A stretch of 64,000 nt of DNA from Thiobacillus sp. (GTDB taxonomy: Bacteria > Pseudomonadota > Gammaproteobacteria > Burkholderiales > Thiobacillaceae). The notes beneath the pieces are model-generated. The model did not search any database and was not told the DNA's origin. It saw only the letters and a program-made list of their open reading frames with translations. Positions 126 to 5,640 of this stretch are shown one piece after another. Within the stretch, counting starts at the first letter, position 1; each line of letters begins with the position of its first letter. Made by a program: the position numbers and the translations under genes. The stretch is taken from contig JAJPEP010000029.1 in assembly GCA_021166845.1 (NCBI GenBank), positions 1 to 64,000 on the forward strand. The letters run 5' to 3'.

Positions 126-176
126 ATTGGTGGGTCCGCACGGACTTGAACCGTGGACCAAGGGATTATGAGTCCC
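126..176. repeat. attL: direct repeat copied from the 3' half of the tRNA
   Basis: This 51-bp stretch is identical to the segment at 5562-5612 that forms the CCA end, T arm and anticodon 3' strand of the tRNA. It stops matching at base 177, inside the anticodon stem, so this copy is a tRNA fragment and not a gene. It marks the left junction of the integrated element. Tyrosine integrases that use tRNA genes usually cross over in the anticodon or T loop, which fits the extent of the identity. Confidence 0.92.
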
Positions 177-507
177 GGGACTTCGTCCCCCTTAGACAGA
201 CAAGCTGTCCAAGGTATCCCCTTCCCCTGCTATATCAACTACTTAGTGAGTTCTGACGAACCCTTACAGACAGCCAGCCGAAGGGCTGGTCTATGCCTAC
301 ATAGGAAAAGTGTAGCACACTTGGCACAGAATTGACACGAAATGTTTTCGTAACCCGTTGAAGATAAAGAACTAAAAGGAATATTTCAAAGGGGGTGGCA
401 AGGGGGGTGCCCCGCCCCTGTACCTATATTGCATTACACCTAGAAAATATCCGCACCAAATTCCGGGGTACACTATCTTGATTACGAAAAGGGGAGGGGG
501 GGGGGAA
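177..507. other. Non-coding left arm of the element
   Basis: No convincing gene is seen in these 331 bases. Just inside the repeat are short hairpins: GGGAC/GTCCC at the junction and CCAGCC-gaag-GGCTGG at 274-289. The stretch also contains a candidate integrase arm site (321-338) and a purine-rich tract with GGCA/TGCC symmetry near 398-412. A TACACT hexamer at 469-474 could be a -10 element for the lipoprotein gene, but no matching -35 was found. Confidence 0.5.
321..338 (+). repeat. Candidate integrase arm-type site (left)
   Basis: TTGGCACAGAATTGACAC matches 14 of 18 bases of a sequence in the same orientation at the other end of the element (5499-5516). Both are built from two TTGRCAC half-sites spaced 11 bases apart. 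Lambda-type integrases bind short repeated arm sites near both att cores. That these are such sites is inference from position and repetition. Confidence 0.4.
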
Positions 508-870
508 ATGATTACAAAGACGATCTTTAGTATTTGCTTGGTGGTGGCTGTGGCTGGTTGTGCAACAAATGTAACGATGACAGGGAAAGCTTACCCACCC
601 GTCCCGGTTACAAATGTGAAAGTTCTATTCACAGACAAACCAAAGTGTGACTATGAAGAACTAGGCTTTATTGGAACTCCCGCCATGTGGAACCAAAATG
701 CGGCAATACAATCAGCGCGGGAAAAAGCAGCAGAAATTGGTGCTGACTATTTGCTGATACAAAATGTATCCGTGAACATGTATAACGATGCTATGGTAAG
801 TGGCATGGCCTACAAGTGCGGCACTGTCGATAGGGAAAAAGTTGAGGTAAGCCCACCGGCAGCAAAATAA
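508..870 (+). CDS. Small lipoprotein, cargo of the element
   Basis: The 120-residue product starts with a hydrophobic segment ending in a lipobox (VAGC, Cys18), so it should be lipidated and exported. The mature part contains KVLFTDKPKCDYEELGFI and a helix AREKAAEIGADYLLIQNV. This layout is seen in small outer-membrane lipoproteins of the RcsF/DUF4156 kind, where a Cys near the first strand pairs with a second Cys (here Cys109). The ATG is preceded by a long G-rich Shine-Dalgarno; an upstream TTG in the same frame would spoil the signal peptide. It is the only rightward gene in the element. Its function is unknown; surface modification of the host is one guess. Confidence 0.75.
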   Translation: MITKTIFSICLVVAVAGCATNVTMTGKAYPPVPVTNVKVLFTDKPKCDYEELGFIGTPAMWNQNAAIQSAREKAAEIGADYLLIQNVSVNMYNDAMVSGMAYKCGTVDREKVEVSPPAAK

Positions 871-1062: not shown

Positions 1063-1109
1063 CTTAGTAATGCAGTAGAAGATACACAGAATATATCTAT
1101 ATTACTAAG
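1063..1109. repeat. 9-bp inverted repeat at the end of the leftward operon
   Basis: CTTAGTAAT (1063-1071) is a perfect inverted copy of ATTACTAAG (1101-1109), which overlaps the stop codon of the polymerase-like gene. The loop is A+T-rich. The position suggests a transcription end or mRNA 3' structure. Confidence 0.4.
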
Positions 1110-2367
1110 TAATAATAGGGTTTATATCAAAGTAATACATAAACCATTTAGTCATAGTATTGCGAAGCAATGCTTCGTGTTCAATTTGTACTATCAGTGA
1201 ATCGAACACCGGCAGGCATACAATCCCTTTCTTTGCCAGTTCTACCAACACTGAATCAATTAACACGCTATCCATACACTGTAGGGCTGTTCCAAGGCCG
1301 CTATACAAATAAGGCTTAATGGCTTTATGTTTGTCCTCAATTGCACTTAATACCTTCTTACTGTTCTTGATATAAAGATCGTGAGACATTGTATTAAGGG
1401 TTTGTTCCCTGTCTCTGCAATTGAATAGAACAAAGAAAGAATCCTTAACGGCTTGTCTATCTATGCCGGGTATTGCATAACTATCTTCTGGAATAGACAA
1501 AGCTTGTCCAGCCAAGATATATAGAATCGTTGCATGTAGGCATTTATAGTCTAGCTCAACAGTCTTCTTTTTATTGATCTTGATTGTGCTACGTTCTTCT
1601 TTGTTCAGTAACTGCCACCATCCCCCATAGTGTCGCCCGCCACGCGTGAACATCTCATTAAACGTACGATATAAGTGGATTGCCGTTGGGTCTATATATC
1701 GTCCCTTCTTCTTTCCCGATGTGGGGATCGTCAACACTTTAAAGTCAACGTCAGATGTAATGGCAGCGGATTCAATCAGGCTGTTTACTAATCTAAGATT
1801 ATCCCGCCATTGGTTAGTTATTGCATTGTCTTCATAGTCAATAACTTTCTTGTTCTCATCCTTGCGGATAATACTCTCTTCCTCCTCTAGATCAGACGCC
1901 CGCTTGATATATTCAATGCGGCAACTACTAAGGGCAGAAAGAAACTTATCGGTCGCCTTTATTCGGGTGCGGTATCCGCCACCGCCAGTATTATTATGTT
2001 TAAAACTAGACTGTTCAATAAACCCAGCTTCAGTTAACCAGCTATATAGGTTCATCATTAAGTCATATTTCCAGTGAATACGCCGGTATCTACTACCCTT
2101 TGTGTAATCGTTGCGGTTCTTTGAAATCGCCCGCCAAGGGTTAGCCGTCTGGGCAGCCACCCATAAATCTAGCGCAATCGCCATCAATAGCCGCCGATGC
2201 CGGGCTTTCTTGTAGATAACACGGTCTTGAGAAATAACGTCCCATACATGTTCTAGGTCTAACTGTACGTCTGGATGGTCTGCCTTCTTGTAAACACTGA
2301 GCATAGGGGCCGACTTGATAAGGTCTAGTTCAGCCAATAGTAAACCCCTTTGGGTTGTCGTTTTCAT
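1105..2367 (-). CDS. Polymerase-like replication protein of the element
   Basis: The 420-residue product matches no protein I can name, but its C-terminal half has an ordered motif set. These are GRHYGGWWQ (244-252), ELDYKCLH with Asp273, DRQAVKDSF with Arg304 and Lys308, and PVFDSLIV with Asp389. That order (acidic strand, basic helix, acidic strand) matches motifs A, B and C of the DNA polymerase I/T7 RNA polymerase palm. The N-terminal 200 residues have charged helical segments such as YKKARHRRLLMAIALDLW that may bind DNA. I recall similar YGGWWQ...LDYxxLH proteins from plasmids and prophages annotated as hypothetical. The inferred role is replication or priming of the element. The ATG used here has no Shine-Dalgarno. 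A TTG at 2337, seven bases after AAAGGGG and overlapping the upstream stop by eight bases, may be the real start. Confidence 0.7.
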   Translation of the reverse strand: MKTTTQRGLLLAELDLIKSAPMLSVYKKADHPDVQLDLEHVWDVISQDRVIYKKARHRRLLMAIALDLWVAAQTANPWRAISKNRNDYTKGSRYRRIHWKYDLMMNLYSWLTEAGFIEQSSFKHNNTGGGGYRTRIKATDKFLSALSSCRIEYIKRASDLEEEESIIRKDENKKVIDYEDNAITNQWRDNLRLVNSLIESAAITSDVDFKVLTIPTSGKKKGRYIDPTAIHLYRTFNEMFTRGGRHYGGWWQLLNKEERSTIKINKKKTVELDYKCLHATILYILAGQALSIPEDSYAIPGIDRQAVKDSFFVLFNCRDREQTLNTMSHDLYIKNSKKVLSAIEDKHKAIKPYLYSGLGTALQCMDSVLIDSVLVELAKKGIVCLPVFDSLIVQIEHEALLRNTMTKWFMYYFDINPIIT

Positions 2368-2518
2368 CTACAACATTGGGCCACCAATAAGTATTCATTC
2401 CATCATCTACAATACATAAGTCAGGGTCTTTCCATTCCTTATCGGACATTGATTCTAGAAACGCTTTTAGTTCGCCGTCTTCGCTTTCAATCTTCTGCAT
2501 AAATTCTTTTCTGGTCAT
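2330..2518 (-). CDS. Small acidic protein of the element, unknown function
   Basis: The 62-residue product is acidic and helical at its N terminus (MTRKEFMQKIESEDGELKAF), followed by a Trp-rich stretch (MNTYWWPNV). No family was recognised. Its ATG overlaps the stop of the upstream gene by four bases (ATGA), and its own end overlaps the start region of the polymerase-like gene. It should therefore be made in step with its neighbours by translational coupling. Confidence 0.6.
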   Translation of the reverse strand: MTRKEFMQKIESEDGELKAFLESMSDKEWKDPDLCIVDDGMNTYWWPNVVDENDNPKGFTIG

Positions 2519-2712
2519 TCGTTGTCCGCCTTTATTCGCAGGTCTTCAACCATCTCATCCGTAACATATGAATCATCTTCATATTCGTTACCAGATTCAT
2601 CTATGTACGCGGGCGGGCTAGCTTTGTGCGTAGCTGTCGGAACTTCTTTCGCCATCATCTTTTGATACCTTATCGCGTCAAGCCGCTCACTTATAATTTC
2701 ATCCATGCTCAA
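2515..2712 (-). CDS. Small acidic protein of the element, unknown function
   Basis: The 65-residue product has an N-terminal helix (MSMDEIISERLDAIRYQKMM) and a very acidic second half (DESGNEYEDDSYVTDEMVEDL). No family was recognised. Start and stop both overlap neighbouring genes by four bases, which supports real translation. The acidic tail suggests a protein partner or DNA mimicry, but that is only a guess. Confidence 0.6.
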   Translation of the reverse strand: MSMDEIISERLDAIRYQKMMAKEVPTATHKASPPAYIDESGNEYEDDSYVTDEMVEDLRIKADNE

Positions 2713-3212
2713 TGAATCCCCATAATGATGGTATCTGGAAATGAAGCATAGGGAAGATCAATAAAATATTCAGTTCGCTTTGCTTCATTTAGAATTTCTG
2801 GATATGTAACCAACTGTGCCCCAACACTTTTCAAATCAATGAGGGCAGACGCCAACAGTTGCCCCGGCTGGTCTGAGTCAGCTACTGAGTACAGCATCCA
2901 GTCTGCGTAGTCGGCGTTCTGCTCCATTACTTTTTCCAATTCGCTTGGGTAGTTATATTTCTTGGTTGTCCGAAGGGTAAAACCGTTTTGCCAGTATTTA
3001 TAGTGTTCATTTCTCCGCACACGATATGCCACTTTCATTCGCTCAATGTCGATATAGTCATCTACCCCATTAATGGCATCCTCCCGGTAGGTGGGGGGAG
3101 TAAAGACCACGCTGATTAAATTCTTTTCAATCAGAAGACCAGTAGCAATCTGTCTTTGTTGTGCTTGGTAGGCATCCGCCCACGTTCGGGCATCTTGATA
3201 AGCAGTGCTCAT
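2709..3212 (-). CDS. Conserved mobile-element protein, possibly nuclease-like
   Basis: The 167-residue product contains NGVDDYIDIERMKVAYRVRR followed by a FTLRTT strand, then DWMLYSVAD and ALIDLKSVGAQL. I recall this order (acidic strand, VxYRVRR, FTxR, E/L helix, DWxxY, IDL) from hypothetical proteins of plasmids and prophages. It looks like a restriction-endonuclease-type alpha/beta core. The usual catalytic E-x-K is not obvious, so activity is doubtful. The start at MSTAYQ is preferred over an in-frame ATG five codons earlier because it gives the same four-base ATGA overlap as the rest of the operon. Confidence 0.6.
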   Translation of the reverse strand: MSTAYQDARTWADAYQAQQRQIATGLLIEKNLISVVFTPPTYREDAINGVDDYIDIERMKVAYRVRRNEHYKYWQNGFTLRTTKKYNYPSELEKVMEQNADYADWMLYSVADSDQPGQLLASALIDLKSVGAQLVTYPEILNEAKRTEYFIDLPYASFPDTIIMGIH

Positions 3213-3421
3213 AGCTTTGACCCCCAACTACTTCGTACCGTGCCAGACCGCTTCTGAATCTTCTCTTTCCGGGACAGATAGTCCCGAAGGGAATGCAACG
3301 GCCCTAGATATTCTGGACACGCTGCTGCAATCCGTTCTACCTGCTTACGCGCTTCCGCTTCCGCTAAGTTAGCGTAGCTGACGCTACTTTTATCCTTGTT
3401 CGTCAGTCCGTCGTTTTTCAT
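3209..3421 (-). CDS. Small basic protein of the element, unknown function
   Basis: The 70-residue product is hydrophilic with a helical middle (ANLAEAEARKQVERIAAACP) and a basic C terminus (SRKEKIQKRSGTVR). It begins inside the previous gene (32-base overlap) and its stop overlaps the next start by four bases. No family was recognised. The charge pattern would suit nucleic-acid or partner binding. Confidence 0.55.
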   Translation of the reverse strand: MKNDGLTNKDKSSVSYANLAEAEARKQVERIAAACPEYLGPLHSLRDYLSRKEKIQKRSGTVRSSWGSKL

Positions 3422-3647
3422 AGTGTTCGGGTGGGAAAATTGTTAGTGCCCATGCCGGCTGAATTTCGTTCTTCTGCATGTACCTTGCCATTGCTGTCTG
3501 ATTCCACGGCTTACCGTTAGCCTGATAGATACCCATGCCGTTCAGTTCATCAGCAATGCGACGCTGCCCCATTCGCTGTGCAAACTGCCTAACAAGGGGC
3601 ATCACTAGGACGCTGCTTACATCGCTCAAGGCGTTCGCGCCGCTCAC
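3390..3647 (-). CDS. Small HTH-like protein resembling a recombinase helper domain
   Basis: The 85-residue product has RRIADELNGMGIYQANGKPW followed by NQTAMARYMQ. This resembles the helix-turn-helix of the 'recombinase' domain in large serine recombinases (IAxxLNxxGIxxxxGxxW). It is far too short to be a recombinase. A role as excisionase, directionality factor or element regulator is inferred from size and fold. Its ATG overlaps the upstream stop by four bases. Confidence 0.6.
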   Translation of the reverse strand: MSGANALSDVSSVLVMPLVRQFAQRMGQRRIADELNGMGIYQANGKPWNQTAMARYMQKNEIQPAWALTIFPPEHYEKRRTDEQG

Positions 3648-4135
3648 TTCTTCCCCCTGTTTTTAAGGTGGTAGGCAAGCCCCATGGTTTGCTTGTCATT
3701 CCTCATCTGTTTTTGCACAGGAACCGACCAATAGGCACGGGGATCATTTACCCGCAGATCGTCGTAAAACTCCTTATTGCGGTTGGGCTGTTTAATGACC
3801 GACTCATTGTGGGCATCCTGTTCAGCCATCTGTGAAGCTACGGCCCTGTATCGCTGTTCTTCTTTGTACGCGTCCCGCGCTGCCCTGATAGTCCACTTAG
3901 CCCGCTCAGTCTTGGCCTGCATGAGAAGGCCCACCCAGTCAGGTTCACCGTTGCTTTCTTGGGGTGGAATACGTAGCTTTGCGGCTAGCCCCATGGACTT
4001 CGCATATCCCGCACCACGCGTATCAACGCGCCCTTGCATGTCACTGCCCATTTCACTCTTCTGGAAGATCGTTGTGGACGTGTCGCCGTCGTCCATGTTC
4101 ACCAGCCCAAATTCATTGAATTTAAAATTGCTCAT
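3644..4135 (-). CDS. First gene of the element's leftward operon, unknown function
   Basis: The 163-residue product is hydrophilic, with a central charged helical stretch (AKTERAKWTIRAARDAYKEE) and a basic C terminus ending NRGKK. No family was recognised. It is the promoter-proximal gene of seven overlapping genes, so it may be made in the greatest amount. The Shine-Dalgarno (AAAGGTG) is 11 bases from the ATG, which is rather far. Confidence 0.6.
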   Translation of the reverse strand: MSNFKFNEFGLVNMDDGDTSTTIFQKSEMGSDMQGRVDTRGAGYAKSMGLAAKLRIPPQESNGEPDWVGLLMQAKTERAKWTIRAARDAYKEEQRYRAVASQMAEQDAHNESVIKQPNRNKEFYDDLRVNDPRAYWSVPVQKQMRNDKQTMGLAYHLKNRGKK

Positions 4136-4515: not shown

Positions 4516-5484
4516 CTAGATTCCCGCCTCCATCTTTCTCAAAAGATCAGCGGGTTTAAGGTGGGTGTACCGGGAAAGCATCTGCATAGTCTTATGTCCG
4601 CTGACTGCGGCGACCTCAAATTGATTCATCCCACGTTCAAACATCCGGGTAATGGCTTCATGCCGTAAATCATGGAAGTGAAAATTAACCATCCCTGCTT
4701 TCTTTAATGCGGTCTCCCATGCCTTGCGGGGGAACACTGGGAACAGACGGCCTATCCCTTTTGGTGGAAGAACTGACAAAGCCTTTTTGGTTAGGGGGAT
4801 GATTCGACCTTCTCCGTTTTTCGCCGTATCTTTTTTTATGACCGACCACGTGAGATCTATCTCAGACCAAGTGAGGAAAACGATTTCACTTTGTCTACAG
4901 GCTGTCTCAAGGGCCAGAACAATCAACCGGGAAAGGTAGGGATGACCAGCACAGGCAGCTAACAACCGCTGTTCTTCATCACCTTCTAACCTGCGGCTTC
5001 GGGCATTGCTGCCCTTTGGCTTGCGTATGGATTGAATTGGGTTGGTTACAGCTATTCCCCATTCTTGGGCTGCAATGGTGAACAGGTGGGAGACGATAGC
5101 CAGTTCTAGGCGTACCGTATTGGATGCAAGACCAGCCCCTAACCGTTTGTCCCGATATGCTGCGAAGTCAGAAGAGCGAAGCGAAGCAAGGGACCGGGCT
5201 GCAAGGTCAGACCGTAGCCATACCCCTATGCGGTCAGCCTCACGGCTTGCGCCTTTCTTCTTTGGGGTGACTTCCCGCCTGTATCGTTCAAGGGCTTGGG
5301 CTAGGGTTGTAGCTTCGGCTTCGCTACGGCAGACAAAGCAACCCCTGTCCATTTCAGACTCAATGGTTCTGGCCCACTTGTCTGCATCAGATCGGGTTGT
5401 AAAGGATTTGGTTTGAAGTGGGTAGCCCTTGCGGGTGATACGAACATTCCACTTCCCGGATGGAAGCTTGCGAATTGATGCCAT
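4516..5484 (-). CDS. Tyrosine integrase of the element
   Basis: The 322-residue product has an N-terminal arm-binding domain (SIRKLPSGKWNVRITRKGY), a core-binding domain, and the catalytic domain of tyrosine recombinases. Catalytic residues visible are Arg197 (TACRQSE), His271 and Arg274 (HFHDLRHE), His297 (SGHKT) and Tyr306 (SRYTHL); Lys222 may be the catalytic lysine. All appear intact, so it could act. It inserts and removes the element at the tRNA. The ATG follows GTGAGG by eight bases; an upstream GTG in frame lies inside a candidate arm site and is less likely. The gene reads away from the tRNA on the same strand, so readthrough from the tRNA or rpoD could feed it. Confidence 0.92.
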   Translation of the reverse strand: MASIRKLPSGKWNVRITRKGYPLQTKSFTTRSDADKWARTIESEMDRGCFVCRSEAEATTLAQALERYRREVTPKKKGASREADRIGVWLRSDLAARSLASLRSSDFAAYRDKRLGAGLASNTVRLELAIVSHLFTIAAQEWGIAVTNPIQSIRKPKGSNARSRRLEGDEEQRLLAACAGHPYLSRLIVLALETACRQSEIVFLTWSEIDLTWSVIKKDTAKNGEGRIIPLTKKALSVLPPKGIGRLFPVFPRKAWETALKKAGMVNFHFHDLRHEAITRMFERGMNQFEVAAVSGHKTMQMLSRYTHLKPADLLRKMEAGI

Positions 5485-5498
5485 GTTCTGCGCCTCAC

Positions 5499-5516
5499 TT
5501 GACACGCAGTTGACAC
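5499..5516 (+). repeat. Candidate integrase arm-type site (right)
   Basis: TTGACACGCAGTTGACAC is the right-end counterpart of the sequence at 321-338, with 14 of 18 bases identical and the same orientation. It lies between the integrase start and the att core. The two half-sites are TTGACAC, 11 bases apart. Binding by the integrase here could also repress its own gene. Confidence 0.4.

Positions 5517-5561: not shown

Positions 5562-5640
<79 letters not shown>

Follow-up and report, generated by a model that had tools for sequence, protein, structure and literature searches.

The 420-amino-acid product of a gene in a 64,000-nucleotide stretch of Thiobacillus sp. DNA (contig JAJPEP010000029.1; the window) is almost certainly a minimal palm polymerase of the family-A type (Pol I/T7 RNA polymerase superfamily), and its gene sits in a complete integrated mobile element of 5,436 bp, which the protein probably serves as replication or priming enzyme. 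The polymerase family is already described as phrog_4756, its phage branch being divPolA2 (2024). New here are the complete, bounded element around the polymerase gene, with its empty site; sister elements of 4.1-12 kb with integrase and polymerase, and no replicative helicase recognised in those examined; an N-terminus that looks winged-helix-like in models, below significance; and an active site in which, judged by alignment, the Glu/Tyr/DE of Pol I appears usually as His/Asn/DS, five phage proteins retaining Glu and DE.

The open reading frame starts with ATG. A preliminary description of the window had read in it the palm motifs A, B and C of family A polymerases and T7 RNA polymerase, and LDYKCLH with Asp273, RQAVK with Arg304 and Lys308, and VFDSLIV with Asp389 are all present; YGGWWQ is present too, although its placing at 244-252 was slightly off, GGRHYGGWWQ being Gly243-Gln252. 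The protein had no match in Pfam, PADLOC or NCBIfam, and the single sequence gave nothing useful against the PDB (best E 1.1, an aerotaxis receptor). In the PHROGs search it was assigned to phrog_4756 (E 5.7e-46), annotated there as of unknown function. The family is widespread, with tblastn hits of the protein in 220 phage records (115 from Rheinheimera, 87 from Vibrio) and three plasmids; the 60 of the 220 phage records that were listed are labelled 'hypothetical protein' or 'conserved hypothetical protein'. Of 300 genomes of the same order searched with a profile, seven matched, the source genome included; six of these are real, and the seventh, a weak phrog_4756 match (G214, L008), reads in translation as a SecD-like membrane protein and was dropped. 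Motif-guided scans located the family at at least 80 loci in bacterial genomes and at 15 distinct loci in viral contigs. A plasmid tblastn with a Methylobacterium relative returned two records, both already known from earlier searches, and scanning viral contigs with the ICP1 protein found nothing. Three divergent copies (L164, L166 and L167) occur in one genome, that of Vibrio phage 166E36-1.

The fold of the protein was predicted with AlphaFold2 from a 75-row alignment, which gave a confident model (pLDDT 89.8, pTM 0.86). The best 50 of 389 Foldseek matches in the PDB consist entirely of DNA polymerases of family A, including Klentaq, the apicoplast polymerase, Bst, Pol nu and Pol theta, and of mitochondrial RNA polymerases; 25 of these 50 have E values of 0.001 or lower (best 9.7e-5), in agreement with the palm reading. 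Superposition covers only a portion of the model, which keeps the TM-scores of the 50 low (0.27-0.43 of query length). A Rheinheimera phage protein labelled DNA polymerase ranks second among the matches to viral models. Profile comparison by hhalign gave the expected motif A register against Pol I (GGR against TGR, WQ against LQN, and Asp273 against the DYSQ Asp) with scores that are weak taken alone (probability 1.4%, P 0.037); the alignment with T7-like RNA polymerases spans motif C and is likewise weak alone (10.6%, P 0.0029), and the known homologues Pol I and T7 RNA polymerase scored worse against each other (P 0.28), the Pol I profile being shallow. In the model, strands 233-237 and 243-247 form a beta-hairpin before the palm, preceded by one long helix (182-200), and the hairpin, palm and fingers region holds Arg245, the motif A Asp273, the fingers residues Arg304 and Lys308 and the motif C Asp389.

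Residues 22-165 modelled alone gave a pLDDT of 90.5, and the Foldseek matches of this model (best E 0.014, below significance), classed by protein name, are mostly wHTH proteins, such as CodY, TFIIE, PadR and LmrR. Profile searches of the N-terminus against the PDB gave weak matches, mostly to transcription regulators (2/2 in one search, 8/12 in another). The N-terminal domain thus looks winged-helix-like in the model, at a level that is not significant, and appears to stand in place of an exonuclease and a classical thumb. Pfam recognised no exonuclease domain in the protein, as the preliminary description had noted, and its remark on the missing thumb fits the published account of the same family, according to which it has no thumb with homology to that of any other DNA polymerase (PMC11348598).

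Conservation of the catalytic residues was assessed in two alignments. In the first, with nine relatives of 19-28% identity collected with no motif filter, Gly244, Arg259, Asp273, Tyr297, Lys308 and Asp389 are among the invariant columns. In the second, of 100 sequences, Asp273, Lys308, Asp389, Arg259 and Tyr297 are each found in 100/100, Arg245 in 99, Arg304 in 98 and Asp295 in 92. The motif scans supplied 95 loci, of which seven fragments or near-copies (L027, L074, L076, L077, L078, L091 and L108) were excluded; from the 88 left, a further 14 were removed for alignment A3 as being fragments, near-copies or long or fused proteins. Nine further phage records were chosen by hand among the 60 listed of 220, and the 100 sequences include one identical pair (L006 and L055). 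Since 74 of the 100 were found through patterns containing motif-C residues, the invariance of motif C rests on the other 26 (25 loci and the 420-aa protein), collected with no such filter, all of which keep both aspartates. The homologues therefore retain Asp273 and Asp389, the check that had been suggested for them. Short motifs do occur by chance, and the order of motifs might have been a fortuitous pattern in an unrelated protein; invariance across 100 relatives together with the family-A fold matches refutes this reading, to which we assign practically no weight.

Around these invariant residues, the active site differs from that of Pol I. In Pol I of 24 related bacteria, Glu occupies motif A D+5, Tyr occupies fingers K+8 and motif C reads DE; at the same positions seven T7-like RNA polymerases have Gly, Tyr and a consensus DS. 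The set H/N/DS is exact in 78 of the 100 family sequences, the 420-aa protein included; the latter departs from the family at Phe388, where 94/100 have His. Glu with DE is found in five phage proteins (ICP1, 166E36-1, 1.063, 1.161 and 1.101), three of which also have Tyr, and neither Glu nor DE occurs in any other sequence of the 100. In a tree built by a quick method, with L022 and L053 excluded, a branch with a support of 99, among phage sequences, sets these five apart from the rest, and the difference may therefore be a single change. At K+4, the place of Phe762 in Pol I, the 420-aa protein has Phe312; in the 75-row alignment this position is Leu in 38 rows and Asn in 24. The Glu position of motif A (D+5) is His278 in the 420-aa protein. 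In E. coli Pol I, Glu710 and Phe762 are reported to act against ribonucleotides (PMC7581432). The alignments thus suggest an altered sugar preference for the family, less clearly so for the 420-aa protein because it keeps Phe312 where its relatives mostly have Leu or Asn.

These residues also bear on whether the protein is a small DNA-dependent RNA polymerase, either transcribing genes of the element or of a helper or confined to making RNA primers, an option also raised by the authors of the 2024 divPolA2 study (PMC11348598). Motif C is usually HDS, like the T7-like consensus and not the HDE of Pol I, mitochondrial RNA polymerases are among the fold matches, and five of 75 family members match Pfam RNA_pol weakly (best 0.0013; the 420-aa protein itself has no such match), while weak matches of a few members to RNA- or DNA-polymerase families of PHROGs reach 3.9e-4 at best. 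However, the first 21 rows of PDB fold matches are DNA polymerases, the 420-aa protein is less than half the size of T7 RNA polymerase, Glu and DE, as in Pol I, are present in five members, and Phe312 occupies the position of Pol I Phe762, a residue that contributes to ribonucleotide rejection, although most relatives differ there. On balance an RNA polymerase is unlikely, and we favour a replication or priming enzyme.

The preliminary description had the gene serving an element, and the gene indeed lies inside a complete one (Table 1). The integrase is beside the tRNA gene, and from it a series of small ORFs runs leftward with the polymerase as the last gene; one cargo gene is on the opposite strand. 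The distal repeat overlaps a tRNA remnant recognised by Rfam at 131-190 (29.3 bits against a cut-off of 29). Nine of 11 other genomes of the genus match positions 1-176 (or 3-176) in one piece; in eight of the nine fetched loci the site is empty, the flanks being contiguous and overlapping on 49-51 nt of the repeat, as displayed directly in L146. The 51-bp repeats and the contiguous flanks at empty sites define the inserted unit as 5,436 bp. The ninth locus (L154, G345) has the left flank only and its site is occupied by a different element.

Table 1. Features of the 5,436-bp element and of its polymerase (positions in the window).
Feature	Position	Strand	Evidence
Distal att, 51-bp direct repeat, remnant of tRNA-Met 3' part	126-176	.	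100% identical to 5562-5612
130-aa cargo gene, opposite strand	478-870	+	DUF4156 E 0.0038, below cut-off; no PHROG match
Palm-domain polymerase (phrog_4756/divPolA2/TV-Pol-like), 420 aa	1105-2367	-	phrog_4756, AF2, Foldseek family A
Hairpin, palm and fingers, residues 233-413	1129-1671	-	Model secondary structure, conservation
N-terminal domain, winged-helix-like, residues 54-138	1954-2208	-	AF2 of residues 22-165, Foldseek
62-aa ORF overlapping polymerase start	2330-2518	-	No homologue in 88 other loci
65-aa ORF	2515-2712	-	No phmmer homologue in 88 other loci (set without L157)
172-aa candidate partner, upstream of polymerase	2709-3227	-	Related genes in 3 other elements
70-aa ORF, coding status unsure	3209-3421	-	No Pfam/PHROG match; no homologue in 88 other loci
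85-aa protein, recombinase-type helix-turn-helix	3390-3647	-	Pfam Recombinase 4.8e-5; L157 homologue 1.6e-12
163-aa ORF, first in leftward gene row	3644-4135	-	Homologue in L157, phmmer 1.7e-28
Tyrosine integrase, 329 aa, beside tRNA	4516-5505	-	Pfam Phage_integrase 1.1e-23; phrog_1 1.1e-57
Proximal att, 51-bp direct repeat overlapping tRNA-Met 3' part	5562-5612	.	Repeat, empty sites
Intact tRNA-Met (cat), integration target	5564-5640	-	ARAGORN; Rfam 71.1 bits

The Pfam scan of the element covered nine ORFs, leaving aside a 60-aa ORF at 153-335 and antisense ORFs, and no replicative helicase was found in those nine. The 172-aa protein gave no significant family match in searches that included Pfam and PHROGs; a nuclease-like look of its sequence, of the PD-(D/E)xK kind, is at most a tentative impression. 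Its family, compared in alignment A8, comprises four elements only, with relatives found by phmmer in L157 (1.5e-73) and L158 (2.4e-7) and, via L158, in L160 (1.8e-7), and in these three it lies next to or near the polymerase. A 65-aa ORF of L158 weakly matches (0.0044) the Pfam Recombinase model that also matches the 85-aa protein. The 163-aa product was considered as an OB-fold protein, but the match to Rep_fac-A_C (E 0.053) is not significant and the assignment was dropped. By reading of its sequence, the 130-aa cargo product appears lipoprotein-like. A two-sequence alignment of the intergenic stretches between the integrase and the 163-aa gene gave nothing readable as an origin.

Sister elements place the same polymerase in comparable settings. 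In L157, from a genome of the same genus, a perfect 97-nt repeat bounds 5,443 bp, the insertion lying, as the translation reads, at the 3' end of a gene for peptide deformylase. The genes run integrase, 151 aa, 74 aa, 166 aa, 69 aa and polymerase; the 151-, 74- and 166-aa products are homologous to the 163-, 85- and 172-aa products of the tRNA-Met element, the 69-aa ORF takes the place of the 65-aa ORF, and the opposite-strand gene in the corresponding place encodes an Lcl_C/PEP-CTERM protein unrelated to the 130-aa cargo. Two genomes from another family of the same order carry elements of 5,408 bp and 4,758 bp in tRNA-Met, and a third carries one of 9,275 bp in tRNA-Leu. The smallest, in Limnohabitans sp. 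15K (L103), is 4,094 bp long and has an integrase, the polymerase and three small ORFs. Across 94 polymerase loci, counted without a random-locus control and with an integrase profile built from the ORFs of these same loci, a tyrosine integrase lies within 6 kb of the polymerase in 57, a serine recombinase in 13 and at least one of them in 58; neither is within 6 kb in 36, in some because the contig ends. A tRNA gene is present in 36 of 88 loci, and 18 of these 36 show tRNA-derived repeats of 17-70 nt (70 nt being the upper limit of the search), all flanking the polymerase and spanning 4,094 to 11,987 bp; among 220 random control segments, six had a repeat of at least 14 nt and none had one of at least 17 nt. 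Integrase and polymerase are what the sister elements of 4.1-12 kb have in common.

The other genes of 17 bounded elements, polymerases excluded, were searched as a set (A6) of 111 of 113 ORFs, omitting one att-remnant ORF and one polymerase fragment. Pfam gave 15 Phage_integrase and three resolvase matches, and restriction-modification and other cargo genes occur as single cases; replicative helicase, capsid and terminase were absent from the 25 of 71 Pfam families and the 25 of 109 PHROG families listed. A one-by-one scan of 20 ORFs, part of those in ten elements (L050, L053, L059, L080, L086, L092, L103, L157, L158 and L160), likewise found no replicative helicase, primase, capsid or terminase. 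A carbonic anhydrase and a glycosyltransferase are among the cargo of these ten, as is a caspase-domain protein (L080:7449-8513; Peptidase_C14, 7.3e-11), the principal cargo of an integrase-polymerase element of 4.9 kb in tRNA-Gly. An 836-aa ORF (L059:4093-6603) of a 6.3-kb tRNA-Ser element lies immediately upstream of the polymerase and matches AAA_22 (7.7e-6) and NACHT (0.0093), both below cut-offs; its product may belong to the defence-type ATPases and not to the replication proteins.

The gene content is relevant to the possibility that the protein is an accessory polymerase for repair or recombination, or cargo, the element being replicated solely as part of the host chromosome or in some other way. 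Phage relatives give this some standing: phage KASIA carries an annotated DNA polymerase I besides the relative, several copies are possible, as in phage 166E36-1 with its three, the neighbourhoods of phage relatives are described as variable, and in barbaviruses, which have a regular PolB, divPolA2 was held by the 2024 authors to be most likely not the replicase (PMC11348598). In the most compact elements, however, the polymerase is the one large gene besides the integrase and, given also that an integrase lies within 6 kb in 57/94 loci, it looks like a core component of these elements and not cargo; we therefore regard an accessory role as distinctly improbable.

A phage-satellite way of life is compatible with the replication or priming role: the polymerase would start replication only upon infection by a helper phage, which would package the element. 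The size and plan of the element (an integrase, one replication gene and no capsid gene recognised) resemble those of the minimal PICMI satellites, which are described with an integrase, one replication gene and few others (Nat Commun 2024, PMC10803314), and large phages carry the same polymerase family. Yet Pfam detected neither of the PICMI core genes, alpA and a primase (DUF3987 with DUF5906), among the nine ORFs scanned, and PICMIs are described from Vibrionaceae at a fis site, whereas the present element shares only the integrase and uses a tRNA-Met site. A satellite is thus a tentative possibility; our literature search found no paper combining 'phage satellite' and 'TV-Pol'.

The closest described relatives are found in two separate literatures. 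The family profile matches the divPolA2 representative AUR84708 (MG592441, 25469-26761; L165) with E 1.7e-43; this protein has E/Y/DE, whereas the element family has mostly H/N/DS. The name divPolA2 is used in both the preprint and the journal version of the study (Virol J 2024, PMC11348598), which describes in Caudoviricetes a palm, no exonuclease, an unusual N-terminal domain and structural matches to RNA polymerases, all as in the 420-aa protein; there the family is one of phages, here its relatives lie in small integrated bacterial elements, and the N-terminal domain, reported there as lacking similarity to known domains, looks winged-helix-like here, below significance. The available text of that study cites TV-Pol without linking divPolA2 to it. 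TV-Pol (Iyer, Abhiman and Aravind 2008, PMC2579912) is described as 400-600 aa long, with an extra N-terminal domain in a subset, and the 420-aa protein shares its hairpin Arg, two metal-binding palm Asp residues, and fingers Asp and RxxxK. It likewise has integrase or resolvase neighbours, and the host genera overlap (Loktanella, Methylobacterium, Roseovarius and Paracoccus). From the shared features and these neighbourhoods in overlapping genera, the 420-aa protein likely belongs to the TV-Pol subset with an N-terminal domain. There are differences: the D5 helicase, a usual though not obligatory partner of TV-Pol, was not recognised beside the polymerase in the scanned ORFs, and the TV-Pol N-terminal domain was predicted as all-helical. 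TV-Pol is described with a thumb of two antiparallel helices; our model has the one long helix 182-200 before the hairpin. Microcystis phage Ma-LMM01, a named TV-Pol holder, gave no match to the present profile at E<=10. The work thus ties together bacterial TV-Pol elements and phage divPolA2.

The CCPol of SCCmec was placed in TV-Pol by the 2008 authors and acts as a primase only with its partner MP (PMC7581432). CCPol-MP (eLife 2020, PMC7581432; Rice 2023, PMC10061031) similarly pairs a family-A polymerase of a mobile element with a small operon partner. It is a demonstrated primase, whereas the 420-aa protein is known here from sequence and model, and our literature search found no polymerase or primase assay for this branch. 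By description, CCPol keeps the equivalents of Glu710 and Phe762, where the 420-aa protein has His278 and Phe312, and, unlike in the CCPol-MP system, no OB-fold partner or helicase was identified in the 5,436-bp element. Pipolins (Sci Rep 2020, PMC7385651) likewise encode a polymerase of their own and tyrosine recombinases, and their att repeats lie in a tRNA gene, but their polymerase, piPolB, is of family B, a different catalytic lineage.

In light of these data, we infer that the protein most likely acts as an origin-binding, primer-making polymerase of the excised element. Excision at the 51-bp repeats would be the task of the integrase; binding of an origin on the circle would fall to the N-terminal domain, possibly together with the 172-aa neighbour; the palm domain would make a primer or first strand; and host helicase and polymerase III, or a helper phage, would complete the copy. 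The backing obtained here consists of the fold prediction, the conserved catalytic residues, the bounds of the element, the empty site, the recurrent pairing of integrase and polymerase, and the partly conserved gene order. With no origin identified and no helicase encoded, the element must rely on outside factors for essential steps. More speculatively, the elements of 4-12 kb might replicate without a helicase of their own, with the winged-helix/palm protein as both initiator and primer-independent polymerase; given the change from Glu/Tyr/DE to His/Asn/DS, it may start chains with ribonucleotides or mixed nucleotides. If true, this would be a PolA-type counterpart of pipolins. Precisely bounded elements of 4-12 kb offer small natural systems for studying how a family-A palm starts DNA synthesis, and the 5.4-kb element, with integrase, polymerase and a few small genes, is a good test of the minimum needed for self-copying DNA.

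Some further observations concern the family and the integration site. Six members, mainly from Methylobacterium and kin (L083, L088, L090, L094, L100 and L101), are 655-719 aa long, longer than most relatives. A Paracoccus versutus plasmid (L014) has a second ORF of 200 aa that matches the family profile at 2e-26 and is possibly a second or broken copy of the polymerase. The different element at the tRNA-Met gene of G345 (L156, tRNA-Met 3866-3942) measures about 8.5 kb by flank spacing and encodes an integrase with an Arm DNA-binding domain, an MmeI-like restriction-modification protein, a GmrSD-like protein and a DUF1376/DnaT-like protein, with no match to the palm polymerase profile. Finally, another contig of the source assembly (G000:C87) ends with positions 1-141 at 100% identity, an overlap that runs from just outside the element into the att repeat and could be an assembly branch at the element edge.
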